A stretch of DNA of 37,358 nt from Oceanospirillales bacterium. Lineage in GTDB: Bacteria > Pseudomonadota > Gammaproteobacteria > Pseudomonadales > Balneatricaceae. Location: assembly GCA_018223185.1 (NCBI GenBank), contig JAAEYW010000035.1, positions 1-37,358 on the forward strand, in the 5' to 3' direction. Position numbers and translations under genes: made by a program. Positions within the stretch are counted from its first letter, which is position 1, and each line of letters starts with the position of its first letter. Below the pieces are notes generated by a model. It saw nothing but the letters and a program-made list of their open reading frames with translations. It was not told where the DNA came from and searched no databases. This document shows positions 6,700 through 29,836 of the stretch, piece by piece.

Positions 6700-7710
6700 T
6701 TACTTACTTTCAGCTGCAGCGACGGCGGCGTCCAGTTTTTCGATCCAGACAGCGTCGTCACCCAGCTCGCCAGCAAGCCATTTCTTAACAGAAGGCTGTG
6801 CCAGACGTTTGAATTCAGCCAGTTCTGCGGCCGTTGGAGAATAGACCTGCATACCTTCAGCAGAGACCTTGGTTACACCTTCGGCCGTGTTGAATTGCTG
6901 AATAGCGCGGCCCATTGTGCCAGCGATGCGGGCGGCCTTAACGATGATCGCCTGGTCTGATTCAGGCAGAGAGCTTAAGAATTCATCGTTAATAACGATG
7001 AAGTCGGCACCGTAAACATGACCATCCAGTACCATATATTTCTGCAGTTTGTGCAGGCTGTTGTTGTAAATGGTTCCGACAGGGTTTTCCTGCCCGTCGA
7101 CAACGCCGGTGGTCAGAGCGTTTGGTAATTCTGACCATGCGATAGGAGTAGGTTCTCCGCCCAGTCCTTTAACCATTTCTACGTAAAGAGGAATTGGCTG
7201 AACCCGGAATTTAAGCCCTTTCATGTCAGCAGGTGATTTGATTTCATGGGCATTATTGGTGAAGTTACGGAATCCTGTTTCGCCATAAGCCAGAGTACGC
7301 AGACCGGTTTCTTCCAGGCAGTGATCGCTCAGAGCCTTACCAAACTCTCCGTCCAGAACATCCCACGCAACAGTAGGGGAGGAGAATGTATAGGGGATAT
7401 TCAACACATCAGCGGCTTTACAAATTTTGGCCATTGCACCGGAGACGATTGCCATTTGCGTGGTGCCTTCCTGAGCCTGCTGAACCAGTTCTCCTTCGTT
7501 ACCCAGTGCTTTGGCAGGGAACAGCTCCACAGTAATATCGGTTTCACCTTCAACGATGTTCTTGAAGATCACGCCTGCAGCACCCTTCTTAGATGTTTGC
7601 CACTCAGCGCCATCTACATGGCCCAGTTTAATTGTCGGTCCAGCGACAGCTGTAGCCGAAGCGGCGGCGATTGCGGCGGCCAGGCTTAAAGACAGTGCAT
7701 GCTTGATCAT
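6700..7710 (-). CDS. dctP: TRAP transporter periplasmic solute-binding protein DctP (system 1)
   Basis: The 336-residue substrate-capture protein of the TRAP importer. Residues 1-23 are a signal peptide (LSLSLAAAIAAASATAVA). The domain has the DctP-family GFRNF (R148) and LKFRVQP (R169); the arginine in the latter motif usually forms the salt bridge to a carboxylate ligand. The start is taken as the ATG at 7710, six bases after GGAG; an in-frame ATG at 7722 overlaps that site. It is the first gene of the operon and diverges from a TetR regulator. Two copies of a 17-bp sequence lie in the shared promoter region. Confidence 0.95.
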   Translation of the reverse strand: MIKHALSLSLAAAIAAASATAVAGPTIKLGHVDGAEWQTSKKGAAGVIFKNIVEGETDITVELFPAKALGNEGELVQQAQEGTTQMAIVSGAMAKICKAADVLNIPYTFSSPTVAWDVLDGEFGKALSDHCLEETGLRTLAYGETGFRNFTNNAHEIKSPADMKGLKFRVQPIPLYVEMVKGLGGEPTPIAWSELPNALTTGVVDGQENPVGTIYNNSLHKLQKYMVLDGHVYGADFIVINDEFLSSLPESDQAIIVKAARIAGTMGRAIQQFNTAEGVTKVSAEGMQVYSPTAAELAEFKRLAQPSVKKWLAGELGDDAVWIEKLDAAVAAAESK

Positions 7711-7778
7711 TCGGAGCTCCATACTTTTCTCATTATTTTGAATTTATGGCTGAGATTATGAACGGTATTTTTATGTAA

Positions 7779-7795
7779 TGTACCATTAGGTTAAT
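7779..7795 (+). promoter_or_regulatory. Candidate operator, copy A
   Basis: TGTACCATTAGGTTAAT contains an ACC-N4-GGT dyad and matches a second site 67 bp away at 13 of 17 positions. It lies in the divergent region between dctP and the TetR gene, so it is a natural candidate binding site for that regulator. Confidence 0.55.
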
Positions 7796-7845
7796 TATCT
7801 CAGTGATGCAAGAATGAACCATGATGAACAATTCGTCAACTGTTT

Positions 7846-7862
7846 TGTACCAGACGGTTAAA
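7846..7862 (+). promoter_or_regulatory. Candidate operator, copy B
   Basis: TGTACCAGACGGTTAAA shares TGTACCA and GGTTAA with copy A, in the same orientation and with the same inner dyad. It lies about 60-70 bp before the TetR start codon, which suggests autoregulation. Confidence 0.55.
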
Positions 7863-7933
7863 AAGCTTGATTCCTTCGTTTTAAGCAGTACAGTGGTGGA
7901 ATTGCCACTTACCAGATACTGATGCTGTGTTGT

Positions 7934-8605
7934 ATGACTGAAAATAAAGAGAAGAAAAAACGTCAGGGCTGGAAACAGAACCCTGAAGCGGTACAGGAAA
8001 ATATACTTGAGGCGGCCCTTGAAGAGTTTGCCGAACGTGGTTTTGCTGGCGCCAGAATAAATTTGATTGCCGATAAAACAGACACATCTAAACGGATGAT
8101 CTATTACTATTTTGGTGATAAAGAGGGGCTGTATCGCAGGGTTATTGAGAAAACCTACACCGATACGCGTCAGGGGGAACTGGCGCTCGAACTTGACCTG
8201 TCTAAGCCCCAGGAGGCCCTGAGGAAGTTAATTACTTTTACCTTTAACCATCATCGAAAGCATTCAGATTTTATTCGTCTGGTGATGATTGAAAACATTC
8301 ATCAGGGAAGACACTTGGGTGAAAAACAGCACTTTGCCGATATAAATGCTCCAGCCATTCAGCGGGTTAAAGAGATCTATTCAGCGGGCGTTGAACAAGG
8401 CGTTTTCCGTCGCGGTTTATCGGCGGAGCAGCTTCACTGGCAGATCAGTGCTATGTGTTTTTTTAACGTGTCTAACCAGGCTACATTTGGAGCGGCTTTC
8501 GGTGATCAACTGTTTACTCCAACCGGGCAAAAGGAGCTTTGCCAAACGATCGAAGACACGGTGCTAACGTTTTTGTTGCACGAACCCGATCGCTTATTGA
8601 AGTAA
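7934..8605 (+). CDS. TetR/AcrR family transcriptional regulator
   Basis: A one-component regulator of 223 residues. The N-terminal helix-turn-helix is typical: [19 protein letters not shown], then [23 protein letters not shown] with the signature YYYFGDKE. The C-terminal ligand domain is variable and gives no inducer. The start is taken as ATG 7934 (MTENKEKKK); an ATG at 7922 is also possible and neither has a good ribosome site. It diverges from the dctPQM operon and is followed 46 bp later by a 3-dehydroquinate dehydratase gene. It probably controls uptake and catabolism of quinate, shikimate or dehydroshikimate. Confidence 0.9.
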
Positions 8606-8651: not shown

Positions 8652-9104
8652 ATGCCTGCCCTGATGATTCTTAATGGACCAAATCTTAACCTCCTGGGAA
8701 CCCGTGAACCTGAACAATACGGCTATGAAACCCTGGCCGACGTGGAAGTCATGTGTCGGGAGGCCGCTAATACCCATGGTTATGAGATCGACTTCAGACA
8801 GTCGAATCATGAAGGGGTTCTGGTGGACGCCATTCATGAAGCCCGGGAGTTGATGTTACAAGGGGAGCTTGCAGGAATTGTGTTCAACCCCGGCGCATAC
8901 ACCCATACCTCTGTGGCGCTTCACGATGCCATTAAAGGTACTGAAGTGCCCGTGATCGAGGTGCATATCAGTAACGTGCACGCCCGTGAAGCATTCAGAC
9001 ATCACTCTTATATATCACCGGCAGCCACTGGAATAGTCATCGGTATGGGGGTCTATGGATACGTACTGGGGATCCATGGTTTGGTGGCAAAGCTTAAATC
9101 GTGA
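8652..9104 (+). CDS. aroQ: Type II 3-dehydroquinate dehydratase
   Basis: A 150-residue enzyme that converts 3-dehydroquinate to 3-dehydroshikimate by anti elimination, normally as a dodecamer. All hallmark segments are present: [18 protein letters not shown] with catalytic Tyr23, [10 protein letters not shown] with N79, and EVHISN with catalytic H105, then a basic [10 protein letters not shown] loop. The type II reaction is used in both biosynthesis and quinate catabolism. Here it sits with a TetR gene, a TRAP importer and quinate/shikimate dehydrogenase genes, not with accBC, so a catabolic (quiB-like) role is likely. The ribosome site is weak. A terminator follows. Confidence 0.93.
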
Positions 9105-17174: not shown

Positions 17175-18683
17175 TCACACGGTTTTTCTGAACACCGCGG
17201 CTTTGGCTTTAGTCCACAGGGGAGTCTGTGAAATAAAGATCAGGACTATTGATATGAATAGTACAAAGGATAATGGGCTGCTAAGCAGGTTGATAAAGAA
17301 ATCCGGCAGGCTTTCGCGTTCAGAGATGATCGCCCGGCGCCAGTTCTCATCCATCAGACGGCTTAGAATTACCCCCAGAATTACCGGGCCCACCTGATAG
17401 TCATACTGCTTCATAAAGTACCCGATCACACCAAATCCAAGCATCCACCAGATATCAGCGATTGAGTTGTTGATTGCATAGGCACCGACAACGGAAAGTA
17501 GCAGAATCAGCGGAATCAGGATTCCCTTCGGACACTCAACAATTTTAGAGAACAGCTTGATACCGGTTAAGCCAAACACCAGCACAAAGATGTTCGCCAG
17601 GGTCAGGTTACCGACCGTAAACCAGAACATTCCAGGGTTTTCAGTCAACAGAAGCGGCCCCGGATTGAGTCCGTGAATAAACAATGCTCCCAGGAAAACC
17701 GCCGTCACTGCATCACCGGGAATACCCAGTGTCAGCATCGGAATATAGGCACCACCAACAGCAGCATTGTTGGCCGCTTCAGGAGCGATCAGTCCCTCTT
17801 TAGCGCCCTGACCAAATGGCACTTCGGGGTTCTTTGTCACCCGTTTAGCATGGTCGTAAGCCATCAGTGCCGCTATATCACCACCGGTTCCGGGTAAAGC
17901 CCCTACAATGACACCGATAGTGGAGGTTTGCAGGCTCAGTGGCAGGTATTTTTTGATATCGCTCCAGCGAGGAATAATACGATCGATCTTCTGTTTAATG
18001 GCCGCTTTATTCATATAGTGCAGCTGAGTCAGGGCTTCAGACACACCAAACAGACCGATCATCACAGCAATAGGATTGATGCCGTTCCATAACTCGACAA
18101 CCCCGAAGGTAAAGCGCTCTTCGGCAGTCAGCGGATCAAGTCCCACGGTGCCGATTAACATACCAAAGGCTCCGGCGAAGACTCCCTTGGTCAGGTTATT
18201 ACCTGACAGTGAGCCGACCAGCATGATCCCGAGAACTCCGAGCATCAGATAATCTCGGGGTTGGAATTTCAGGGCAAACTCGCTGACCATGGGGGCTGCC
18301 AGTGCAAGCACGATAATGCCGACAAAACCGCCGACAACTGACATCACTGTAGACAGGCCAATGGCTTCACCCGCCTCGCCTTTCAGTGCCATAGGATAGC
18401 CGTCAAGTGCTGTGGCGATCGCTGAGGGTGCGCCGGGTATATTCAGCAGAATCGCAGTACGCGAACCGCCATATACGCCACCCATAAAGATACCGACCAT
18501 CAGGCAAAGTGCGTTATTTACATCCCAGGAGAATGTGAAAGAGATGAGGATCGATACCGCCATTGTAACTGAGAGGCCTGGTATCGCACCGATATACACC
18601 CCTAAAAAAGTGCCCAGCGCGGTGAGGGCCATCAGTTCCGGGGAGATCCAGGATGTAGCGAAATAGTTCAAAGCTTCCATCAT
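17175..18683 (-). CDS. tctA: Tripartite tricarboxylate transporter large permease TctA
   Basis: A 502-residue polytopic membrane protein, the channel of a TTT-family secondary importer for carboxylates. Family landmarks are GVYIGAIPGLSVTMAVSIL near the N-terminus, GGVYGGSRTAILLNIPGAPSAIATALDGYP, and VGALPGTGGDIAALMAYDHAKR. The operon order tctC-tctB-tctA is standard, with 14 bp after tctB. Two ATGs stand in tandem; the first is used here. Possible substrates include citrate and aromatic or hydroaromatic carboxylates; sequence does not decide. Confidence 0.96.
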   Translation of the reverse strand: MMEALNYFATSWISPELMALTALGTFLGVYIGAIPGLSVTMAVSILISFTFSWDVNNALCLMVGIFMGGVYGGSRTAILLNIPGAPSAIATALDGYPMALKGEAGEAIGLSTVMSVVGGFVGIIVLALAAPMVSEFALKFQPRDYLMLGVLGIMLVGSLSGNNLTKGVFAGAFGMLIGTVGLDPLTAEERFTFGVVELWNGINPIAVMIGLFGVSEALTQLHYMNKAAIKQKIDRIIPRWSDIKKYLPLSLQTSTIGVIVGALPGTGGDIAALMAYDHAKRVTKNPEVPFGQGAKEGLIAPEAANNAAVGGAYIPMLTLGIPGDAVTAVFLGALFIHGLNPGPLLLTENPGMFWFTVGNLTLANIFVLVFGLTGIKLFSKIVECPKGILIPLILLLSVVGAYAINNSIADIWWMLGFGVIGYFMKQYDYQVGPVILGVILSRLMDENWRRAIISERESLPDFFINLLSSPLSFVLFISIVLIFISQTPLWTKAKAAVFRKTV

Positions 18684-18697
18684 AATAATAACCCCGA

Positions 18698-19207
18698 TTA
18701 TTTAAACAGAGACCCGATCCAGGCCATGATTTCACGCTCAGGAATAATTCCTTCAGGCAAAATGACACTGAATACCAGCCGGAATATGATATAGATGATC
18801 GTCAGGGCAAGTAGTGAGAGCAGGATCGAACGAACCAGCCCCTTCTGATGCAGAAACTGAATGCTGATGATCAAAAAGAGCAGGGCGGAGATAATAAAGC
18901 CCAGGGTATCCAGAGCAATGCCAAAAATAAAAATGATGGCGATCATTATGGAGACGATAGGTGGTAATACATTGCTCCAGAAAACTTCAAATCCACCTAT
19001 TTCGGCAGGTCGCTTTAGGTCTTTTAACAGGCTTATGCAGGAGGCGACAACCATAATGCCACTAGCGGCTATAGGAAATGCGCCAGGTGAACTTAACGCG
19101 CTAAATCCTGAAATTTCATACGCTTGCCAGAAAAGAAACAGGCTGAAAGCCAGCACCAGGAAACCAAACAGCGTTTCACCGGGTTTTTTGGCACGAATAG
19201 TAGGCAT
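18698..19207 (-). CDS. tctB: Tripartite tricarboxylate transporter small permease TctB
   Basis: A 169-residue membrane protein with four predicted helices and the TctB pattern SSPGAFPIAASGIMVVASCISLLKD. It supports TctA in the TTT complex. AAGGA lies 9 bp before the ATG. Poorly conserved in sequence as a family, but its size, helices and place between tctC and tctA make the call firm. Confidence 0.9.
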   Translation of the reverse strand: MPTIRAKKPGETLFGFLVLAFSLFLFWQAYEISGFSALSSPGAFPIAASGIMVVASCISLLKDLKRPAEIGGFEVFWSNVLPPIVSIMIAIIFIFGIALDTLGFIISALLFLIISIQFLHQKGLVRSILLSLLALTIIYIIFRLVFSVILPEGIIPEREIMAWIGSLFK

Positions 19208-19307: not shown

Positions 19308-20300
19308 TTAAGGACGTGGGATACCAAACTCTTCAGGAGAGCGTTTGGAGAAACCTGCGTCATGAACAATCCATGAGGATACGGAACGGTAGGTGCTAAG
19401 GAACTTCTCAGCTTCCGGACCCGCTACGTTCATGATGGAAAAGCCACGCTTATTCATCAGATCGATAAAGTCAGGATGTTGTGCCGCTGTGTGGTAAGCC
19501 GAAACCAGTTTGTCAACCGCTTCCTGAGGTGTGCCATTCTTCACGAAAACACCAAAGAACGGACCCCATGGAAGGTAAGTAGAAAAGCCAGGGAAATCTT
19601 CTGTAATCGGTGCTACGCCGGGCAACAGGTCGTTAGCTTTAACATCGACCAGGCCAATCACTTTCATACGACCCGCTTTTACATGCTCAATCGCGGCACC
19701 CAGTACTGCAGGCATCACATCAAGAGCACCTGATTGCAGGGCCGTCAGGGCAGGGCCATCACCATCGTATGGAATATTGGTCAGATCTAGTTTTACCTGA
19801 GAATCAAGCATCGCAAGCACTATGGAGGTCAGCCCGCCAGGACCGGTAGAGCCTGTTTTTACCATACCAGGGTTCGCTTTAGCGTACTCAACAAACTCTT
19901 TCATATTGTTGTATGGGGCATCGTTGTTAGCGACGAAGATGGGAATACCACGGGCGAGAATATTGATCGGTGTAAAGTCACCGTAGTCCAGATTGGCCAG
20001 TCCCAGTGTTTTATACATTTGTGGATTCTCGGCACCCATTAACAGGGTGTAACCATCGGCCTTCTTGGCATAAACGAATTTTGTTGCGATTGCCCCCACA
20101 CCACCGGTGCGGTTAGTCATAACGATATCGACACCAAGCTCTTTTTCAGCGTGTGGCGTAACTGAACGCATAACGGTATCAGTAGAACCACCAGCACCCC
20201 ATTGGATAATGCCCTGAATATCCTTCTTCGGAAATTCAGCAAACGCGGGAGCCGCAACTATTGAGAGTGCAGCAAGTGCAACGATAAGACGTTTTTTCAT
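19308..20300 (-). CDS. tctC: Tripartite tricarboxylate transporter substrate-binding protein TctC (Bug family)
   Basis: A 330-residue exported binding protein. The signal peptide runs to about AFA (residue 21). The Bug fold shows in IIQWGAGGSTDTVMRSVTPH, TNRTGGVGAIATKFV and KADGYTLLMG, followed by STGPGGLTSIV. Bug proteins bind carboxylates through two carbonyl-contacting loops. AGGTG lies six bases before the ATG. It is the first gene of the tctCBA operon and diverges from a GntR gene; an operator-like palindrome lies 31-46 bp upstream of its start. Confidence 0.95.
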   Translation of the reverse strand: MKKRLIVALAALSIVAAPAFAEFPKKDIQGIIQWGAGGSTDTVMRSVTPHAEKELGVDIVMTNRTGGVGAIATKFVYAKKADGYTLLMGAENPQMYKTLGLANLDYGDFTPINILARGIPIFVANNDAPYNNMKEFVEYAKANPGMVKTGSTGPGGLTSIVLAMLDSQVKLDLTNIPYDGDGPALTALQSGALDVMPAVLGAAIEHVKAGRMKVIGLVDVKANDLLPGVAPITEDFPGFSTYLPWGPFFGVFVKNGTPQEAVDKLVSAYHTAAQHPDFIDLMNKRGFSIMNVAGPEAEKFLSTYRSVSSWIVHDAGFSKRSPEEFGIPRP

Positions 20301-20492: not shown

Positions 20493-21161
20493 ATGAAGGA
20501 AACTGATAGTAGTGTAGCTTACCTTCGGTTACGTGGAGATATTCTGGACGGGAGTATTGAGCCCTCCAGCAAACTCTCGATCAGCCAGTTGACCGGTAAA
20601 TATGAGTCCAGTGCTGCGCCTGTGCGGGAGGCCCTGTCCAGGTTGTCTGCAGAGGGCTTGGTTGTGCGTAAAGGCCAGCGGGGGTATTGGGCTGCCCCGG
20701 TATCACTGGACGAGTTTAAAGAGGTTTCACGTTTGCGTCTGATGTTGGAGGTTGACGCATTTCGTCAGTCAATTGAACATGGCAGTCTTGATTGGGAAGC
20801 CGAAATTGCCGGCGCCCGCCATCGGGAGATGACGATCAGAAAACAGGCATTCGAAAATGAGATGGAAGGTGATAATGTTGCCGCGCTGATTAAGGAAAAC
20901 CGTCGTTTTCATATGGCGCTTATCAGTGCTTGCCCATCTGTCTGGCAGCTGCGTTTTATCTCTACGCTTTATGATCAGTCAGAACGATTCCGGAGATTGT
21001 CTCTGATCAATAAGAGTCGCAAAAGTAAAGGGGAGGGGGTGGATGATCATCAGTTAATTATGGATGCGGCGTTCCGACGTCAGACTGACGAGGCCTGTCA
21101 GTTGTTGTATAACCATATAGAACACTCCAATACTCAGGTTATTGAAAACCTGTTTGACTGA
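20493..21161 (+). CDS. GntR family regulator, FCD (FadR) subfamily
   Basis: A 222-residue repressor/activator. The N-terminal winged helix-turn-helix spans residues 5-70 (KLSISQLTGKYESSAAPVREALSRL, then GLVVRKGQRGYWAAPV). The C-terminal all-helical FCD domain keeps the metal-site histidines in NRRFHMAL, DDHQLIMDA and NHIEHS. Such proteins sense small organic acids. GGAG lies six bases before the ATG. It diverges from tctCBA and converges with the TIM-barrel gene, so the transporter operon is its most likely target. Confidence 0.93.
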   Translation: MKETDSSVAYLRLRGDILDGSIEPSSKLSISQLTGKYESSAAPVREALSRLSAEGLVVRKGQRGYWAAPVSLDEFKEVSRLRLMLEVDAFRQSIEHGSLDWEAEIAGARHREMTIRKQAFENEMEGDNVAALIKENRRFHMALISACPSVWQLRFISTLYDQSERFRRLSLINKSRKSKGEGVDDHQLIMDAAFRRQTDEACQLLYNHIEHSNTQVIENLFD

Positions 21162-21200: not shown

Positions 21201-22037
21201 TTATACGTTCGGTGTTAAAAGCGCTTTGACGTATGCCAGGCTATTACTTATCTCGGCCGAGACAATCTCTTCCGAACAGCCCCGGTAGGGTATTGATTGA
21301 GCATAGAGCGAATATCTGCCCTGATAGCCCTGTTGTTCCATAAGCCTGATAAGCTCGGGTATAACAGGCTCATGGTCAGCCTTGGTTGGCAGCATTCGCG
21401 TAGGGATAGTGGTGTGTTGTACCGAGTCCTGATTATGAATAGCGGAGAGCTGCACCAGGCCGACCATCTCCATCGGTATCGCTCTGATCAGTGTTGCCAG
21501 ACCTTCATCACTACAATGGCGCAGTGCGATATTATCGATCACAAGACACAGGTTCGCATTATTGGCTTGTGTTATCAGTGTGATGGCGTCCTGATAGTTA
21601 TTAATACTCTCTGACCAGGGCAAGGGTTTAAAACCGATTCTCACTCCCCGGACTGTACCCAGCATTGCGAGAGCGCGAAGCTCTTCAACCATGCGTTGCA
21701 GATCGGGTTTGCTGTAGTTTTCGGTGGCCGGACTCACGATCAGCAGGTCTGCTCCTACATTTTCCATTAGTCGCAGATTTGATTTGGCCAGGTTCATTTT
21801 ATAATCCATCAAGTGGGATGGATGACCGAGAAAATCTTTCAGCTCGTGAAAAGCGGCTACTTTCAGCGCGCTGTTTTGCAGAATGCTGGCATTGGTTTGC
21901 AGATTTTGATCGGGCGTTGTCAGGTCCGTATTGCCAATCTCAATAACACCGAACCCCAGTTGTTCTGCCAGAGCCAGTTTTTTTTCCAGGCGGTAGGGAA
22001 GAACGCCCACGTTCAGAATTATGCGATCTTCAGCCAT
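21201..22037 (-). CDS. TIM-barrel protein related to the N-terminal domain of 3-dehydroshikimate dehydratase
   Basis: A 278-residue xylose-isomerase-like TIM-barrel protein of sugar phosphate isomerase/epimerase type. It aligns with the N-terminal half of the fused dehydratase at 26718 (for example GFGVIEI with GFQGVEI and VQLSAI with VQVADA). Of the four metal ligands in the fused protein, D168 and Q196 are kept, the first Glu is K137 (GFKPLPW), and the last Glu is missing (SLYAQS). It is therefore unlikely to be a normal metal-dependent dehydratase. Its start overlaps the stop of the VOC gene by one base (TGATG), so the two are co-translated and may form a complex. Confidence 0.78.
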   Translation of the reverse strand: MAEDRIILNVGVLPYRLEKKLALAEQLGFGVIEIGNTDLTTPDQNLQTNASILQNSALKVAAFHELKDFLGHPSHLMDYKMNLAKSNLRLMENVGADLLIVSPATENYSKPDLQRMVEELRALAMLGTVRGVRIGFKPLPWSESINNYQDAITLITQANNANLCLVIDNIALRHCSDEGLATLIRAIPMEMVGLVQLSAIHNQDSVQHTTIPTRMLPTKADHEPVIPELIRLMEQQGYQGRYSLYAQSIPYRGCSEEIVSAEISNSLAYVKALLTPNV

Positions 22038-22816
22038 CAGACCTCTACCTCTATTGAGAAATCAATACCTTCCGGAAGGTTTTTCAATGTTCTGAAGCCC
22101 GTTTTATTGTCTGTATAGTCCGGCAGAAAAGGCTCCAGAGTGTCGAGCTGATCTTTCTGGGTGCTCAGCCGGATGGCAGAGATGCCTTCATCAGTAATGT
22201 TGTTGTCTTCAATCGATTTCAGAATCAGGCTGAATGATTTGTCAGGGCTAATCAGCTTTTCGTTCTGAACGCTAAAATGTAATAGCTGTGTAAACAGATC
22301 CTGCCACTGTTTGTAATGTTGTGGTGCAATTGACAGTGACAGACTTTCAATCTTATTAAACACTGGTGAAGGCTGGTCTTGTGGGGTCACTGGTGTGAAA
22401 TCAATATCATAGATGCTGAATCGCTCATTGTAGTTGTTGATCAGATAGAGGACAGCGCCTCCGGTAATCTCAATGCCGGGAATATTCAGCTCCATGGCTC
22501 CCGGAGATGAGCTACAGCCCCAGGCACCCTTATGGAGTAACTCTTCATAGGCCAGCTTGGCATTATCTACTCTGACAGCCAGTGCTTTTATCTGACTACC
22601 TGACACCTGGTTCTTCAGAAACAGTTTGCAATCGGCTTCCGCGTTTACAATCACGTTGAGTGTACCCTGGCGATAAAGCTTGACCGATTTGCTTCGATGC
22701 ACGCCGACCATCCTGAAGTTAAGTTGTTGCAGGAGTTGCTCCAGAGTCGCTGGGTCTGCTGTGGCGATCTCTACAAATTCAAGGCCTTTTGGTGTCGTAG
22801 CGGAATTTTGAGTCAT
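22037..22816 (-). CDS. VOC/HPPD-like protein related to the C-terminal domain of 3-dehydroshikimate dehydratase
   Basis: A 259-residue protein with two vicinal-oxygen-chelate-type modules. It aligns with the C-terminal half of the fused dehydratase: HRSKSVKLYRQG against HRSKNVTLMQQG, ELNIPGIEITG against ELNIPAIKAIG, and IYDIDFTPVT against FYDVDFKPLT. The three positions that hold iron in 4-hydroxyphenylpyruvate dioxygenase are S158, A214 and S254, so no catalytic metal site is expected. AGGAAG lies six bases before the ATG. It is the first gene of a two-gene operon with the TIM-barrel gene, the reverse of the domain order in the fused protein. Confidence 0.78.
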   Translation of the reverse strand: MTQNSATTPKGLEFVEIATADPATLEQLLQQLNFRMVGVHRSKSVKLYRQGTLNVIVNAEADCKLFLKNQVSGSQIKALAVRVDNAKLAYEELLHKGAWGCSSSPGAMELNIPGIEITGGAVLYLINNYNERFSIYDIDFTPVTPQDQPSPVFNKIESLSLSIAPQHYKQWQDLFTQLLHFSVQNEKLISPDKSFSLILKSIEDNNITDEGISAIRLSTQKDQLDTLEPFLPDYTDNKTGFRTLKNLPEGIDFSIEVEV

Positions 22817-23369
22817 TGTTCTTCCTGGTGATAGGCTTCTTCTGATTCAGGTTAGTACAGTCAGTTTAATTTTGCGTAGCAGTTTGAACAGTTATGTTGT
22901 CATTTATAGCATATAAATGATTAGGTAGCATCTAATTTGACAGGTGTTATGATTTTTATGTCAGATCGGGTTTAGCAACTGAATAAAAGGGGGATGGCAC
23001 TTTTAAGTCAGAGGAATTCAAGCCAGAGAAATCCTGGGGGGCAGGACGTCGAAAAATTATCGGTATTAATATCACCAGATATGCAACGGGAAATACTTGT
23101 CAGTTGTTTAATGAATAAACCTATAAGACCTGATCTGCTCCATTGGAAACTCGCTTCTGTATCGTTGCTATCCGATTAAAAATGTTCGCTTCAGATACGC
23201 TGCGCTGGTCAGTATGTTCACATTAGTTAGCAGTGAGAATAACGCGGCTGCTTTGTCCTGGAGGGAGTAAGAAAGAGATAACGCTCCGTATTAATGGTCG
23301 AACAAACGTCAATATTAAACCGGTAGAAACTTAGCGTTACTCCCGGTTTGGGGCATATGTTATTGCGAC
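22817..23369. other. Intergenic region without a convincing gene
   Basis: About 550 bp between the VOC gene and the SDR gene. A 61-codon frame (22994-23179) directly follows AGGGGG but has no family resemblance. On the minus strand AAACCGG (23317-23323) and CCGGTTT (23343-23349) could form a weak terminator for the SDR operon. It marks the GC-content boundary of the cassette that follows. Confidence 0.4.
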
Positions 23370-24137
23370 TTAACGTGCCGTAAAGCCGCCATCCACGGTG
23401 ACTTCTGAGCCAGTCATAAAGCGTGAGGCTTCAGACGCCAGGAAAACAATAACATCGGCCAGTTCATCGGGCTGCCCGAATCGTCCCATGGGCGTCTGTC
23501 CCACGGTTCTTGCCGCATAGGGCTCGATTATTTCTGCTGGTGTTACCGCCGCTGCGTTCATCACCATCGGCGTTTCAATGAAACCCGGATGAATGGAATT
23601 GACCCGCACACCGGTGTTGCGGGTCGCACAGTCAAGGGCGATGGACTTGGTCATGGTTCGCACGGCACCTTTAGAGGCGGAATAGGCCAGTGTGAGCTGA
23701 TCGGACACGATGCCGAAAATAGAGCTCACGTTGATGACTGATCCTCCGCCCGACCGTTGCATCAACGGGATAGCATATTTGCACCCCAGAAAGACCCCGC
23801 CCACATTTACTGCCAGCATGCGGTTAAAGGCTTCCAGCGAAGTGGAGTCCAGTGTACCACCTTCGCCCAGTCCGGCATTATTGACCAGCACGTCGAGACG
23901 ACCATGCTCTTGCTCGACAGACCCGATTGCTGAGCGCCAGGCCTCGTCACTGCTAACATCCAGTGGAACCGCCGATGCTGACAGCTGATCTGAGCGAATC
24001 TGTTCCGCGGCTGTCTGTGCAGCAGCCGTCTGAATATCGGCGATCACGACATGATGGCCGGCCCTGGCCAGGGCCTGTGCAGTTGCCAGACCGATTCCCG
24101 ACGCGCCGCCGGTAATAAACGCTACTTTTTGGCTCAT
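23370..24137 (-). CDS. Short-chain dehydrogenase/reductase
   Basis: A 255-residue classical SDR. TGGASGIG (9-16), D34 (NAD preference), NNAG, S139, and YSASK with Y152 and K156 are all present, followed by PGFIETPM. It resembles the branch containing cyclic-alcohol and 1-phenylethanol dehydrogenases, but that is a family-level impression. It is the third gene of a cupin-SDR-SDR operon, 15 bp after the preceding SDR. A likely job is oxidising a secondary alcohol to the ketone used by the cupin enzyme or an intermediate near it. Confidence 0.92.
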   Translation of the reverse strand: MSQKVAFITGGASGIGLATAQALARAGHHVVIADIQTAAAQTAAEQIRSDQLSASAVPLDVSSDEAWRSAIGSVEQEHGRLDVLVNNAGLGEGGTLDSTSLEAFNRMLAVNVGGVFLGCKYAIPLMQRSGGGSVINVSSIFGIVSDQLTLAYSASKGAVRTMTKSIALDCATRNTGVRVNSIHPGFIETPMVMNAAAVTPAEIIEPYAARTVGQTPMGRFGQPDELADVIVFLASEASRFMTGSEVTVDGGFTAR

Positions 24138-24152
24138 TTTTATCTCCTCTGT

Positions 24153-24944
24153 TTAACCCAATGCCATGCCGCCATCGACACTCATACCGATACCCGTAAT
24201 GAATCCGGCCTCATCTGAGCAGAGGTAGGCTGCTGCGTTGGCCACATCTGCAGGTGTCCCCGTACGCTTGAGTGGGGTACGACTGATAACGTATTCCTGT
24301 AGTGATTCAGAATCGGGGAATACACCCAGCCTGAGCAGATCCTGCCCCAGCTTGTCCTGCATGGCCGTGGCGATAATACCCGGATACAGGCAGTTGACCC
24401 GAATCCCCGCGCCGAGTACGCCAGCCTCTATAGCCGCGACCTTGGTCAGTTTGTCCACAGCTGACTTGGTTGCCCCATAAGGCCCGAAGCAGGGTTGAGA
24501 GATGACGTGTGACATGGAAGATAGGTTGAGTATTGCTCCGCCATTACCACCGTTGGCCACACTCATCCGCTTCAGAGCGTGCTTCATGCCGAGAAAAACG
24601 CCCGCCACATTCACGTCCAGCAGCCTGCGGAAGTCAGTCAGCTCGCACTCGGTAATAAAGCTTGTCACTTCGATACCGGCATTGTTCACCAGGATGTCAG
24701 CCTTGCCGAACAGTATTTCGCACTGATCGAACACCGCCGGCCAGCCCGCTTCATCACTCACGTCATGGCGTACGAATGCTGCATGGCTGCCGATCTCTGC
24801 GGCGGTTGCCTTGCCAGCCTCTTCTGCGATGTCGGTCAGCAGGACTCTGGCTCCCCGGCGCACAAAGTCTCTGGCCAGCTCTGCACCGATGCCGTTGGCG
24901 GCACCGGTGATAATGGCAATCTTTCCGTCCAGATTAATCGACAT
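24153..24944 (-). CDS. Short-chain dehydrogenase/reductase
   Basis: A 263-residue classical SDR with TGAANGIG (13-20), D38 (NAD preference), NNAG at 87-90, S143, and YGATK with Y156 and K160, ending in GMSVDGGMALG. It overlaps the cupin gene by 11 bp, so translation is coupled. It is clearly different from the SDR downstream and from that at 11531, so the operon encodes two different alcohol dehydrogenases or reductases, perhaps for the two enantiomers of one alcohol (inference). Confidence 0.92.
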   Translation of the reverse strand: MSINLDGKIAIITGAANGIGAELARDFVRRGARVLLTDIAEEAGKATAAEIGSHAAFVRHDVSDEAGWPAVFDQCEILFGKADILVNNAGIEVTSFITECELTDFRRLLDVNVAGVFLGMKHALKRMSVANGGNGGAILNLSSMSHVISQPCFGPYGATKSAVDKLTKVAAIEAGVLGAGIRVNCLYPGIIATAMQDKLGQDLLRLGVFPDSESLQEYVISRTPLKRTGTPADVANAAAYLCSDEAGFITGIGMSVDGGMALG

Positions 24945-25452
24945 CGCTGAACCCCGCCTTGGCTTTCGGCTTGATGTAGCGCGGCAGTTTACGTCCCTGG
25001 GCCTTGCAGCACTCGATGATCACCTCTTCGATCCAGCCCGCATCCATAACGTTGACGAACTCGCCTTGCGGCGTGAAGTTGATGTTGGAGCCCTGTACCA
25101 CCATGAAGCCATCCGCCGGTTCAGACGCATTATCAGGCACGGAGAAGGTATGGATGGAACCACCGGGTTCATACAGGTAGCTGTTCGCCTTAAGGACATC
25201 ATCGGGGTACTCCATGTAGTTCCAGACACCGCTGAGCTGATAGAAATGCACAGTGCCAGTATGAAAATGCATCGGCAGGCGGGTACCCGGCTGGAACTGA
25301 ACACGCAGAACCCAGTAACCATTTTCGGAGTCGAGGAACAGAGGCCACACCTTCAGGCCGGGGATAGCGGCACTGACATCAACCGGGTCGATGTCATCGG
25401 TATGTATGCAGAGCAGACGGTCCTGTTCATTGATAGTAGTTGGTAAAGTCAT
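24934..25452 (-). CDS. Cupin-domain dioxygenase-like protein, 2,4'-dihydroxyacetophenone dioxygenase type
   Basis: A 172-residue single-cupin protein. The first cupin motif is LPMHFHTGTVHFYQLSG, with H62, H64 and possibly H69; E81 and H101 (GSIHTF) complete a three-His or His/Glu metal site. Sequence character and length fit the family of 2,4'-dihydroxyacetophenone dioxygenase, which splits an aryl hydroxyketone to 4-hydroxybenzoate and formate; the exact substrate is not certain. It is the first gene of an operon with two SDRs, and an AraC gene diverges from it. GC content is higher than in neighbouring modules. Confidence 0.75.
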   Translation of the reverse strand: MTLPTTINEQDRLLCIHTDDIDPVDVSAAIPGLKVWPLFLDSENGYWVLRVQFQPGTRLPMHFHTGTVHFYQLSGVWNYMEYPDDVLKANSYLYEPGGSIHTFSVPDNASEPADGFMVVQGSNINFTPQGEFVNVMDAGWIEEVIIECCKAQGRKLPRYIKPKAKAGFSDVD

Positions 25453-25592: not shown

Positions 25593-26597
25593 GTGCATCT
25601 TGCCAAAAGTTACAGCATCGTTGGCTATCAGCGACTAGTCACCGAACTGGGGCAAAACCCTGTGGCACTGGTACGCTCGGTTGGATTTTTGCCCTCGCAG
25701 TTCAATGGTGCCGACCTCTTTGTTTCTTACAATAAACTTGCGGAACTGCTTGAACTGACCGCTATTAAATGTCGTCAGCCACTGTTCGGATTGCTGCTGA
25801 CTCAGCACCAGCCACTGGAGGCCCTTGGTCCCTTGCCCCTGTTTGCGGCCCAGTCACAAACCATCGGTGACGCTCTGACCAAAGTGAGTAGCGCTCTCTA
25901 CCTGCAGGCTTCAGGAGTTCATGTCAGGCAGATATCGGCTGGAGATAACACCCAGGTTGTGCTTGATTTCGATATATCGACACCTCTTGGCATCACTCAG
26001 ATGAAGTTGCTGAGTGTCGGGCATCTGTGTAATTTTCTCGCCGAGATCACTGGACTACCCCGCTATGAGTTCGAAATTTCAGTCTCGGCCCCGGCCCCAC
26101 ATTTGAGCGATTACGGCAATAGTGAGTACACACAGGTCCATTTCGACCAGCCCTTCTGCGGTATTACCCTGCGGACCCAGCAACTGAACTGTCAAAATCG
26201 CCAGTACGCCTCGGCCATCTCCACCTCCAGCAAGCGCTACGTCGAGTTCCTGCGCGCCCAGTTTCCCACCAGTCTGGAAGAGCAGGTACGACAAGTCGCC
26301 AGTGCATTGCTTGCCAGCGGAGATTGCAGCCTGGAACATGTCGCTGCGTCGCTCGATCTTCATCCGCGTATGCTGCAACTTAAACTCAGGAAACTGGATG
26401 TCAGCTATACGCAGATCATGCGCAGCATCCGCCAGACCCTGGCAGAAGATCATCTGCGTCGAAAAACCATGAGCGTGACCGATCTGGCACTCAATCTCGG
26501 CTATGCCGATGCCTCGATATTCAGCACCCAGTTCAAGGCGTGGACGGGGTTGTCCCCGAAGCAGTGGCAGAAGACGTTTTGCTCAGACATGGTTTGA
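25593..26597 (+). CDS. AraC family regulator with Arabinose_bd-type N-terminus (OruR/ArgR-like)
   Basis: A 334-residue regulator. Residues 20-205 form the large N-terminal ligand-binding domain seen in OruR-type proteins (LGPLPLFAAQSQTIGDAL is characteristic). The C-terminus has the paired helix-turn-helix with MSVTDLALNLGYADASIFS and FKAWTGLSPKQW. The start is GTG at 25593, with AGGA ten bases upstream. It diverges from the cupin-SDR-SDR operon, shares its elevated GC, and probably controls it. A bidirectional terminator follows. Confidence 0.92.
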   Translation: MHLAKSYSIVGYQRLVTELGQNPVALVRSVGFLPSQFNGADLFVSYNKLAELLELTAIKCRQPLFGLLLTQHQPLEALGPLPLFAAQSQTIGDALTKVSSALYLQASGVHVRQISAGDNTQVVLDFDISTPLGITQMKLLSVGHLCNFLAEITGLPRYEFEISVSAPAPHLSDYGNSEYTQVHFDQPFCGITLRTQQLNCQNRQYASAISTSSKRYVEFLRAQFPTSLEEQVRQVASALLASGDCSLEHVAASLDLHPRMLQLKLRKLDVSYTQIMRSIRQTLAEDHLRRKTMSVTDLALNLGYADASIFSTQFKAWTGLSPKQWQKTFCSDMV

Positions 26598-26717: not shown

Positions 26718-28565
26718 TTACTGCTCTGTTTCTTTGTAGAGCCGGGACTGGGCGGCCAGTCTTATATGGGCATTAGGTTCGCCATACTGCTGATAGTCTC
26801 CTTCACGCTGGAGAATCTCAAAAAACACGCCGTTAGCCTCCCGTGTGTAACAGTGGAAAAACTCTCCCTGTTCATTCCGGTCATACATAATGTTGTGTTG
26901 TTTCATTCTGGCCAGCAGTTCGGGCTCCAGCGCGAAGCGGGCATCCAGATCAAGATAATAGTTGTCAGGTATCGGTAGCTGAAACTGGCTGCCGATAGCG
27001 GCTGCAGCCGTAAAAATATCATCACAGGAAAATGCGATCTGCTGCACCCCTGAACCTTTGGTTTTATCAAGAAATCGGCGTGCTGATGCATGCGACGTAG
27101 ATGTCATATTCAATGGGATGCGTACTTTTTTGTTCTTACTCATCGCCAGACGACTGACGACCAGACCATAAACGTCGGGCAGGTCCTGATTCGGCGTGAT
27201 ATCAAACTCCAGCAGTGACTTATAGAAAAATGCCGCTGACAGAAAATCAGTATGCGCGACGGTCTGGCCGATATGGTCAATGGCTTTCAAGCCAATTCCT
27301 GAGTCTGGCTGGTCCGTGAGGGGCTTGAAATCAACATCATAGAAACGGACTTTAGACTGATCATCGAGCAGATAGATAAGGCTGTCGCCAATCGCTTTGA
27401 TAGCCGGGATATTCAGCTCACCCGGACCTGCCTGGTTCATAAAGCTGGGACAGTGATACTGTTTAGCCCGATCGAACGAACGCTTCAGATTGTGGGTTTT
27501 CATCGCCAGAGCACATACAGAAGTGCCATGGGTTTCAAAATGCTCATGTGCCTGGCTGGAGGGTTCCCGGTTTAAGACCAGATTGATATCACCTTGTTGC
27601 ATAAGGGTGACATTCTTTGAACGGTGGGTATGGGTCTCTGAAAAGCCCATAGCGTTCAGTAGTTCCAGCAGATTACTATCTGAGTTTTCAGGCAGTGCAA
27701 ACTCAATAAATTCTACGCCGGTAACTCCTTCATCTACATCACTGTCAGCGTGCTTTGATGTTTGTTCGTCCAGCCATATCAGGGAACGTATACCGTCGAT
27801 CGCTTTTTCAGCGGCAGGGGATGAACGGAACTCATCATTAAAAATCTCATGGGAAAGGTAATCGTTATAACCTTTATCCCGAAGACACTGAACAAACTCT
27901 TTGACGGGCAGATCGCCCTGGCCGGGAAAACAGCGGTAGTGACGGCTGTAGTGAAGCACTTCCATCTGTAGTGCCGGTGCATCGGCGACCTGAACCAGGG
28001 TGATTTTATCCAGCGGTATTTCATCCCGGAGAATATCCAGAGTGTTGCCCCGGGCAAACATATGGAAACTATCGAGAATAATTCCCAGGTTTGGGTGGTC
28101 TGCTTGTTTGACAATATCCCAGGCATCGCCGTAATCAGCGGTATACCTTCCCCAGGCCAGGGCTTCGTAACCGATGTCGAAGCCTTCTTGTCTGGCGATA
28201 TCTGCAAGTTCATACAGATCCGCGGCGGCCCGGTTTTTATCGTTGATAAGGTGAGGGGAGACGTTACTGCAGATCAGTAGCTTTCGGGTTCCCAGTTCAT
28301 GCATCAGCTCAAATTTTTTGCGGGCGCGATAAAAGTTCTGGCTGCGAAAGGGTTCAGGCATCGCTTCAAAATCCCGGAATGGCTGTAAAGCAATGATCTC
28401 AAGGTTGAGGTCTTTAGCTATTGCGCGAATGTCTGCAGCACTGCCGTTGAATTGAGTCAGGTCGTTTTCGAATATTTCAACGCCCTGAAATCCAGCGGCA
28501 GCAGCCGCCTGTAATTTTTCCGGAAGTGTTCCGGAAATTGATACGGTAGCGATAGATGATTTCAT
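26718..28565 (-). CDS. quiC: 3-dehydroshikimate dehydratase, fused TIM-barrel and HPPD-like domains
   Basis: A 615-residue enzyme that converts 3-dehydroshikimate to protocatechuate. Residues 1-265 are the xylose-isomerase-like barrel with metal ligands E134 (GYEALAW), D165 (ILDSFHMF), Q192 (VQVAD) and E240 (SHEIF), matching the QuiC1 type. Residues 280-600 are an HPPD-like VOC region; of the three HPPD iron positions, H431 and E583 are kept but the middle His is Q509 (GVQQIAF). Start ATG 28565 is 22 bp after the upstream dehydrogenase gene; a longer frame overlaps that gene and lacks support. It forms a minus-strand operon with the dehydrogenase. Length fits bacterial fused enzymes (about 600-640). 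Confidence 0.92.
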   Translation of the reverse strand: MKSSIATVSISGTLPEKLQAAAAAGFQGVEIFENDLTQFNGSAADIRAIAKDLNLEIIALQPFRDFEAMPEPFRSQNFYRARKKFELMHELGTRKLLICSNVSPHLINDKNRAAADLYELADIARQEGFDIGYEALAWGRYTADYGDAWDIVKQADHPNLGIILDSFHMFARGNTLDILRDEIPLDKITLVQVADAPALQMEVLHYSRHYRCFPGQGDLPVKEFVQCLRDKGYNDYLSHEIFNDEFRSSPAAEKAIDGIRSLIWLDEQTSKHADSDVDEGVTGVEFIEFALPENSDSNLLELLNAMGFSETHTHRSKNVTLMQQGDINLVLNREPSSQAHEHFETHGTSVCALAMKTHNLKRSFDRAKQYHCPSFMNQAGPGELNIPAIKAIGDSLIYLLDDQSKVRFYDVDFKPLTDQPDSGIGLKAIDHIGQTVAHTDFLSAAFFYKSLLEFDITPNQDLPDVYGLVVSRLAMSKNKKVRIPLNMTSTSHASARRFLDKTKGSGVQQIAFSCDDIFTAAAAIGSQFQLPIPDNYYLDLDARFALEPELLARMKQHNIMYDRNEQGEFFHCYTREANGVFFEILQREGDYQQYGEPNAHIRLAAQSRLYKETEQ

Positions 28566-28587: not shown

Positions 28588-29436
28588 TTATACGAGAGTG
28601 CTTTCGATCTTGAAGCGATGCCGGTACTCAGACATAACTTTTTCTGGATCAGGCTTGGTACCGGTAAAGATTTCGAAGGCATTCAGGGCCTGATAGAAAA
28701 ACAGATCAAAGCCCGATACGATCTTCATTCCGGCATTGGCGCAGCACTGCAGGAACTCGGTATCAATCGGTGTATATATAGCATCAAACGCCCATTTCTG
28801 TGGGCCGATAGCGGCGGCAGAGATAGGAATGCCTGGTGTTTTGTAATGCCCTATAGGGGTACAGTTCACCAGTCCATCACACTCTGCTGCGACAGCAGCA
28901 AGTTGCTCAGCCGTCACCGTTGATGCGTTAAAACCTGCGCTATTGATTGCGTCAGCCAGTGATGTAGCACTTGCCGGATAAAGGTCATAAATCACCACTT
29001 CAGTTGTTCCCAGTTCAAACAGTCCGAATGCAACAGCGCGACCGACGCCACCAGCGCCTATCAACAATACTTTGCCGGCAGGCTGGTCTCCCATACGATG
29101 CCGATAGGCGCTGATAAAGCCGGTGTAATCGGTGTTAAACCCCTGGATTTCGGAACCACTAATTTTCATGGTATTGGTTGCACCGACCAGCTTGACCGCA
29201 GTATTAACGGAGTTGCAGTGATGCAACGCCAGCTGTTTGAATGGATAGGTGATATTGGCTCCCCGGTATCCAGTTGCACGCATCTCCAGCAGTGTTGCGC
29301 TGAAAGCTTCCTGAGTATTTTCCAATGGCTCATGCAATTGATAGGAAACCGGATAGTGATAAAGCTGCCCCAGCATTTCGTGCATAGCCGGGGAGCTGGA
29401 TTGTTGAATGGACAGGCCAATAAGTCCTAATTTCAT
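28588..29436 (-). CDS. Shikimate/quinate dehydrogenase family protein (copy 2)
   Basis: A 282-residue AroE-fold dehydrogenase, paralogous to the copy at 3837. It retains SSSPAMH, NITYPFKQ with catalytic K67, D103 in NTDYTGF, GAGGVG at 127-132, and D151 after the second cofactor strand, suggesting NAD use. The start is ATG 29436, with GGAG eleven bases upstream; a longer frame starting at 29484 adds 16 residues with no family match. It is the first gene of an operon with quiC, which links it firmly to quinate or shikimate catabolism: it makes the 3-dehydro compound that AroQ and QuiC carry on to protocatechuate. Confidence 0.9.
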   Translation of the reverse strand: MKLGLIGLSIQQSSSPAMHEMLGQLYHYPVSYQLHEPLENTQEAFSATLLEMRATGYRGANITYPFKQLALHHCNSVNTAVKLVGATNTMKISGSEIQGFNTDYTGFISAYRHRMGDQPAGKVLLIGAGGVGRAVAFGLFELGTTEVVIYDLYPASATSLADAINSAGFNASTVTAEQLAAVAAECDGLVNCTPIGHYKTPGIPISAAAIGPQKWAFDAIYTPIDTEFLQCCANAGMKIVSGFDLFFYQALNAFEIFTGTKPDPEKVMSEYRHRFKIESTLV

Positions 29437-29836
29437 CGTTCGGGAGTCTCCATTTTGCAGACAGCATAGGTATAGAGAACACACTACAGATTAGCTGATG
29501 TTAAGGGTTTTGAAATCAGCTTTAGTACTGTAGGTCTCTTTATTGTTATTAAGTGTTATTAAATATAATACATACTACTAAATATAGTCAGTAGGATTAA
29601 GAGGTTCTATTTTTGGGGTCTGGGCGCTTCTCATGCACAGAAAAGTGAACATATACGGGGGTAATCCCTTTAAATTCAAAGGATGAGCGCCTGGGTAGAA
29701 TCTGTCAGCGCTAGCTTTGTGATCTAAAAAAAGAATAGTCAGAACGATTTACTTATTGGTTGTGCTAGTCAGATAGTCATTACCATATGTGTAACCCTTC
29801 AGTGTTCCTCTTCTATCTCCCCATGCCGGATCCATC
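29437..29836. promoter_or_regulatory. Divergent promoter region of dehydrogenase-quiC and the AEC transporter
   Basis: About 400 bp with no gene. An AT-rich core (29530-29590) probably holds the operon promoters. GCTGAT and ATCAGC (about 29493-29519) make a small dyad. No clear operator repeated elsewhere in the window was found. Confidence 0.45.

Follow-up and report, generated by a model that had tools for sequence, protein, structure and literature searches.

What is the function of two coupled genes that resemble the two halves of a 3-dehydroshikimate dehydratase (DSD), stand near a fused copy of that enzyme, and lack part of its metal site? In the window (i.e., the whole 37,358-nucleotide stretch that was analysed), the question turns on three genes:

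22037..22816, minus strand: VOC gene, 259 aa, with the HPPD N-terminal domain (PF14696) followed by a compact VOC domain at the C-terminus, in which the first two iron His are missing.
21201..22037, minus strand: TIM-barrel gene, 278 aa, a QuiC-type barrel (PF01261) in which K137 replaces the first metal Glu, the last Glu is lost, D168, Q196 and R214 are kept, and E65 and H72 are clade-specific.
26718..28565, minus strand: fused QuiC (TIM barrel plus HPPD-like half), open frame readable from 28682, with all nine checked barrel active-site residues canonical.

Both genes of the pair were found as open frames where the first-pass annotation had placed them, with VOC upstream, TIM downstream and base 22037 common to both in a TGATG stop/start junction. 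Their homology to both QuiC halves, as split genes in reversed order, was likewise confirmed: the QuiC barrel matched TIM at 26% identity (E 5e-20) and the HPPD-like half matched VOC at 28% identity (E 2e-22), while PF01261 in TIM (48.6 bits, Pfam gathering score 31.1) and PF14696 in VOC (E 8.1e-36) were both above their gathering cut-offs. The predicted models (mean pLDDT 87.9 for TIM and 78.9 for VOC) aligned with QuiC-type domains as had been anticipated: the top solved-structure match of TIM was QuiC1 5hmq (23% identity, TM 0.80-0.84 relative to the query); VOC matched P. fluorescens HPPD best, and 5hmq appeared in its list at ranks 20-25. E-values, Pfam domains and fold matches thus ruled out a chance resemblance. 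On the NCBIfam QuiC model NF042435 the two proteins scored 80.2 and 83.4 bits, under a cut-off of 1200 bits of which the window's own fused QuiC reaches just 615. Compared with the two-domain DSD QuiC1/QsuB (NF042435, PDB 5hmq), the pair shares both folds, a basic residue at R64, R210, D165 and the pathway context, but differs in four respects: i) it consists of two genes rather than a single chain; ii) the order is opposite to the QuiC-type one (barrel first, HPPD-like half second); iii) the first and last metal Glu are lost; iv) iron His are lost in the VOC protein.

The same layout was found well beyond the window. A scan of the genome contigs gave one relative. In a profile search of the window's family (116 genomes), 17 genomes carried a stand-alone barrel, all 17 also with a fused QuiC, and six carried QuiC only; within the window's genus the pair was present in two of 17 listed genomes. 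Two more genomes, G416 and G465, came from an order-wide search of 390 genomes and a third, G1340, from the 44 genomes of their family; each of the three has a fused QuiC. In 20/20 pair genomes of the window's order a fused QuiC was present, and in 20/20 VOC was adjacent to TIM on the same strand, VOC first. Searches at class level (369 genomes) and at phylum level (398 genomes, partly the same ones) yielded five further barrel genomes, in none of which a fused QuiC was detected at E 1e-10; VOC stood directly before TIM in three of them, an aroE-like gene lay in between in G991 (7377-8246 within L138 6509-9130, same strand), and G1023 had no VOC, its intact-ligand barrel (L140 8637-9506) standing beside aroE-like and aroQ genes in the absence of QuiC.

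The largest set came from f153, a family which we label Burkholderiaceae-like; in support of the label, the named plasmid sequences closest to one f153 barrel come from Vitreoscilla filiformis (65.5%), Massilia putida (55.0%) and Azoarcus (39.7%), of which the top two are listed as Betaproteobacteria. At E 1e-35, 44 of its 140 genomes had a stand-alone barrel, 12 a fused QuiC and four both, and no fused QuiC was found in 40 of the 44 (counted by eye, with barrels above 200 bits and QuiC open frames above 600 aa; G1268, a partial match, was placed in neither class). Fused QuiC thus accompanied the barrel in 20/20 pair genomes of the window's order versus 4/44 in f153 (Fisher test, in which kinship is ignored). 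A separate observation in this survey was G1218, where two fused QuiC-type open frames lie ~3 kb apart (contig C9, 134436-138175). VOC was directly upstream of TIM in all 28 further f153 loci read, and at 31 of the 33 loci outside the order at which a stand-alone barrel was read for ligands and VOC (mostly f153, with 13 of its 44 barrel genomes left out). On all three named plasmids a gene annotated as 4-hydroxyphenylpyruvate dioxygenase immediately precedes the barrel, and the barrel partner in outside pairs is annotated as sugar phosphate isomerase/epimerase. The arrangement, which the first-pass annotation had regarded as peculiar and undescribed, is therefore neither peculiar to the window nor a unique local rearrangement, as it recurs in the order, in f153 and in three plasmid records. 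Since it recurs with the metal ligands kept, the split and the gene order form an established architecture, and what sets the window's pair apart is the metal loss alone.

The active-site comparison used the QuiC1 residues given in the excerpted text of PMC7442255 (R64, L97, E134, L136, D165, H168, Q191, S206, R210 and E239) minus L97, i.e., nine positions, with E134, D165, Q191 and E239 (QuiC1 numbering) scored as metal ligands. The fused QuiC barrels compared, nine in number, were canonical at every one of these positions. At the four ligand positions the window's TIM reads K, D, Q and Y: K137 aligns with E134 and a Tyr with E239, while D168 and Q196 are retained, in agreement with the earlier claim that two of four metal ligands are replaced. 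In the window's clade (20 barrels), the E134 position was Lys in 16 and Arg in four, and the E239 position was Asp in 12, Ser in four, Tyr in two, Asn in one and Phe in one, but never Glu. Loss of the last Glu therefore holds for all relatives, whereas the Tyr is atypical, being found only in the window and L003. D165, R210 and a Lys or Arg at position 64 were present in 20/20; Q191 was kept in 16/20 and was Arg in the same four barrels that have Arg at 134; H168 was kept in 8/20 and is Ala in the window's own lineage. Moreover, two polar residues that flank the R64 position, E65 and H72, were conserved only in this clade (19/20 each, L072 being the member without them).

On the other hand, stand-alone barrels outside the order (n=33) kept nearly the full site: E134 in 32, D165 in 32, H168 in 33, Q191 in 33, R210 in 32 and E239 in 33. 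The lone exception, L193 (G1214), reads Q/G/G at 134/165/210, and its site loss is, judged from the alignment, separate from that in the window's clade. Every ligand was intact in the V. filiformis and M. putida plasmid barrels. The Azoarcus barrel kept E134, D165 and Q191, but its position 239 is Asp and its position 168 is Gln, matching many members of the window's clade, so that it may be an intermediate.

The VOC protein resembles HPPD (TIGR01263, PDB 1cjx/7x8e) in its N-terminal Glyoxalase_5 domain and in its best fold match, but its C-terminal domain is shortened to ~110 aa, its iron triad is incomplete and it scored 67 bits on TIGR01263 (cut-off 277). The triad was HHE in 14 HPPD rows, HQE in the ten QuiC rows shown (some being one gene fetched twice, as also among the HPPD rows) and G-R-E in 14 VOC rows of outside pairs. 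In the window's clade the second His was absent from all 19 VOC rows and the first from 18/19, L072 being the exception; at the third position all 19 rows have an alignment gap. Of the three iron positions named for the window's VOC, S158 and A214 were borne out, aligning with the first two iron His of HPPD; S254 is present, but the third position lies in that gap. The triad was incomplete in 33/33 aligned pair VOCs, 14 of them with barrel partners that keep the metal site, and its loss is therefore not specific to the window's locus. Every row of either pair group carries Trp99, which is not the usual residue of HPPD or QuiC; Glu210 was likewise conserved in pair VOCs, at a position where the rows of HPPD and QuiC, trimmed for this comparison, are gaps. 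One sequence, H_L004x1, is a truncated QuiC mislabelled HPPD; it was counted as HPPD in the quick VOC tree and dropped from the triad alignment, the careful VOC tree and the Trp99/Glu210 comparison. In the fused enzymes themselves, the C-terminal half of the window's QuiC (26718-28565) has Gln at the second HPPD iron position, and the iron-position motif reads QQ in 28 of 45 QuiC rows (41 distinct stretches; seven rows were unmatched by the search pattern).

The following genes surround the pair:

8652..9104, plus strand: AroQ, type II 3-dehydroquinate dehydratase, the step before DSD.
17175..18683, minus strand: TctA-type membrane protein.
18698..19207, minus strand: TctB-type membrane protein.
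19308..20300, minus strand: TctC-type binding protein of a tripartite tricarboxylate transporter.
20493..21161, plus strand: GntR/FCD regulator, convergent with the pair in the window and divergent from VOC in several relatives.
23370-25452, minus strand: cupin (PF12973) and two SDR genes, between QuiC and the pair.
25593-26597, plus strand: AraC-type regulator, between QuiC and the pair.
28588..29484, minus strand: AroE-like shikimate/quinate dehydrogenase (longest reading).

In L003 (Amphritea sp. OB2) the aroE-like gene, quiC, VOC and TIM are consecutive, followed by GntR on the other strand and tctCBA, and G133 (L070) has the same order. The cupin/SDR/AraC block is thus likely an insertion in the window, given that QuiC, VOC and TIM are contiguous in L003 and L070. 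A GntR gene of the window's type was part of the cluster at 14 of the 17 loci examined. In G101, the pair (0.30 Mb) lies far from QuiC (1.04 Mb) and beside transporter genes. At L071 1384-2841, close to a GntR-tctCBA-VOC-TIM cluster, there are open frames made of a repeated VHCRTGSLE; the stretch is CRISPR-array-like, presumably of type I-F.

Outside the order, an aroQ or aroE-like gene was near 19 of 23 loci (tblastn within the fetched stretch, with the identity of the queries confirmed), and G991 has one more aroE-like gene, missed by tblastn. The V. filiformis plasmid pVF1 carries a TRAP transporter, shikimate dehydrogenase, VOC, TIM with intact ligands and aroQ within 8 kb. From this context the outside metal-intact pairs look like a working DSD of quinate/shikimate breakdown in genomes without detected QuiC. 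Counted against this reading are the different neighbours of the Azoarcus sp. KH32C pair on plasmid pAZKH (L224 3122-4825), which adjoins CoA transferase and citryl-CoA lyase genes; that pair is possibly an intermediate with another pathway context. The outside pairs (f153 and the plasmids of V. filiformis, M. putida and Azoarcus sp. KH32C) share with the window's pair the gene order, the close spacing, the VOC architecture and Trp99; they differ in that the barrel keeps the DSD ligands (with Asp as the last one in Azoarcus) and in the fused QuiC, undetected in most f153 barrel genomes.

Upstream of the pair lies a candidate operator:

22922..22934, no strand assigned: palindrome TAGGTAGCATCTA, 106 bases upstream of the VOC start.

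The window holds no other exact match to TAGRTANYAYCTA. Across the 860 kb of 52 large loci, TAGRTANYAYCTA matched exactly at eight places (13 strand hits versus 0.44 expected): before VOC in the window (22922), L035 (10844) and L075 (1904); before QuiC in L038 (7699), L075 (6247) and L076 (11478); before tctC in L079 (11351); and inside the tct genes in L035 (13245). The palindrome also occurs in G080, a genome that yielded no pair: at its QuiC locus L062 it starts 104 bases before the QuiC start. The pattern was derived from VOC-GntR intergenic regions, a palindrome search having found few words in common before the sites of L035 and L075 were set side by side, and TAGRTANYAYCTA is a loosened form of TAGRTACTAYCTA adopted after the hits had been inspected; the sites in the window, L038, L079 and L035 (13245) needed the looser form, while the QuiC sites at L075 6247 and L076 fit the original TAGRTACTAYCTA and lay outside the discovery set. 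In the window, no exact match preceded QuiC or AroE, and matches with up to two mismatches were not in excess (12 versus 10.35 expected). GntR may control the pair through this palindrome.

Was the pair a piece of the window's own QuiC, as the first-pass annotation had implied? The trees did not show it to be so: the two barrel clades were separate, and VOC could be grouped with either HPPD or QuiC. Barrels of the window's clade formed one clade (100/100) and QuiC barrels another (100/100); in the careful barrel tree (51 of 92 TIM rows) the former joined QuiC at 82/43, and neither of two constraints was rejected (the clade with outside pairs, AU p 0.43; outside pairs with QuiC, AU p 0.29). In the careful VOC trees (58 of the 145 rows of the quick tree), pair VOCs formed one clade (94/91) beside HPPD, and forcing them together with QuiC against HPPD cost just 0.45 log units (AU p 0.44), such that both placements fit. 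As to origin, which is compatible with any of the functional readings, fission and reordering of a fused QuiC is a tentative option: the small cost of the VOC-QuiC grouping and the barrel grouping favour it, but the free VOC tree places pair VOCs by HPPD, and Trp99 is a feature of neither HPPD nor QuiC at large. The alternative, a separate HPPD recruitment, would stand as well.

The stem of the Amphritea lineage was long (TIM 2.63, VOC 1.24), while QuiC of the same genomes sat on short branches. Omega between the window and L003 was 0.059 for TIM (NG86) and 0.077 for VOC (YN00), rough values as dS was at or near saturation, and 0.014-0.088 for neighbour genes (NG86, where defined). By these estimates the pair is under purifying selection.

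Taken as sequences, the two genes most likely encode a heteromeric pocket protein with an altered or accessory function in the quinate/shikimate regulon. More specifically, with a probability of about 0.5, the pair would derive from a two-gene DSD-like system as a conserved form without metal, and its role at the quinate/shikimate node would be changed or accessory. The two proteins may form a heterodimer whose pocket would bind a carboxylated cyclohexene such as dehydroshikimate, and the Lys or Arg at the E134 position may stand in for the charge of the metal. Fused QuiC would perform the normal dehydration, leaving to the pair a different or accessory job, i.e., either a metal-free reaction on some related substrate or the adjustment of QuiC or of flux. 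We rate metal-free chemistry a little above a pseudoenzyme with a purely regulatory role, since the clade without the metal has fixed new polar residues. Several points count against the derivative reading: i) four of the 20 barrels have Arg at the E134 position and at Q191 as well, so there is no universal single catalytic Lys, and L072 is without E65 and H72; ii) the window's lineage is the most diverged (Ala for His168), which also fits a loosened constraint; iii) the free barrel tree joins the clade to QuiC rather than to the outside pairs, although neither grouping is rejected; iv) the palindrome comes with its intergenic discovery set, its loosened pattern and the lack of a two-mismatch excess in the window. 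The range proposed at first (pseudoenzyme, sensor or new mechanism) still contains this reading, and the metal-ligand loss on which it was built holds; the peculiarity of the layout, also invoked, does not.

A possible but tentative alternative is that the pair is catalytically dead and assists QuiC through its HPPD-like fold, whether by allostery, by stabilisation or by tuning flux. Such a regulatory role would suit the constant presence of QuiC in genomes with the metal-depleted pair, the palindrome common to the QuiC and VOC upstream regions, and the proposal, in the excerpted text of PMC7442255, that the HPPD-like domain of QsuB promotes oligomerisation. It sits less well with the conserved E65, H72 and basic residue at 137, which suggest a working pocket, and with G101, where pair and QuiC are far apart.

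Type I 3-dehydroquinate dehydratase holds a Lys/His/Glu set in a (beta/alpha)8 barrel and acts on a neighbouring substrate. By analogy with that enzyme, the pair might be a metal-independent enzyme at the dehydroshikimate/dehydroquinate node, in which the metal was swapped for a Lys-His-Glu site (K137, H72 and E65), perhaps with a Schiff base, and with an Arg variant in one subclade. We consider this unlikely. A difference from the type I enzyme is that Arg replaces Lys in four of 20 members.

Still less probable is an ordinary metal-dependent DSD or epimerase with the metal held by D165, Q191 and another residue, e.g., the Asp at 239. The retention of D165 (20/20), Q191 (16/20) and Asp 239 (12/20) and the Azoarcus pair, which combines Asp 239 with kept E134, D165 and Q191, are in its favour, but the first ligand is Lys or Arg throughout the clade, the last is Tyr, Ser, Asn or Phe in eight of 20 (the window among them), and Q191 is Arg in four. 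A decaying duplicate of a split DSD, retained through recent inheritance, would match the long branches and the additional residue loss in the window's lineage but was rejected on omega (about 0.06-0.08), no internal stop occurring in any listed search match for the 20 loci and the pair and its new residues being maintained over two families, which makes it the most improbable reading of all.

Four DSD classes, none of them split, are named in the introduction of a 2022 paper (PMC9324987), and no description of a split or pseudoenzyme DSD was found among literature titles and abstract openings, a set that did not cover the primary QuiC1 paper. The metal-intact VOC-TIM pairs, which by their context look like an undescribed split DSD, are thus a candidate fifth class, with a stand-alone barrel in 44 of 140 f153 genomes; their VOC partners are publicly annotated as 4-hydroxyphenylpyruvate dioxygenase despite the incomplete iron triad. 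The role of the HPPD-like domain is left open in the excerpted text of PMC7442255, and the window bears on this question as it keeps an HPPD-like partner without an iron site as a separate subunit.

In this marine bacterium the metal site is lost beside a normal QuiC, an enzyme of plant-acid breakdown, and related pairs in other bacteria keep the site, which together offer a good natural example of how an enzyme takes on another job. If the Lys-His-Glu reading were true, nature would have exchanged metal for Lys/Arg catalysis within one barrel family, with the metal-using relatives extant as the split DSD class. More generally, with a metal-depleted clade beside an intact QuiC, and with the Azoarcus pair looking intermediate, a change from metalloenzyme to metal-free protein would be testable with close living relatives.
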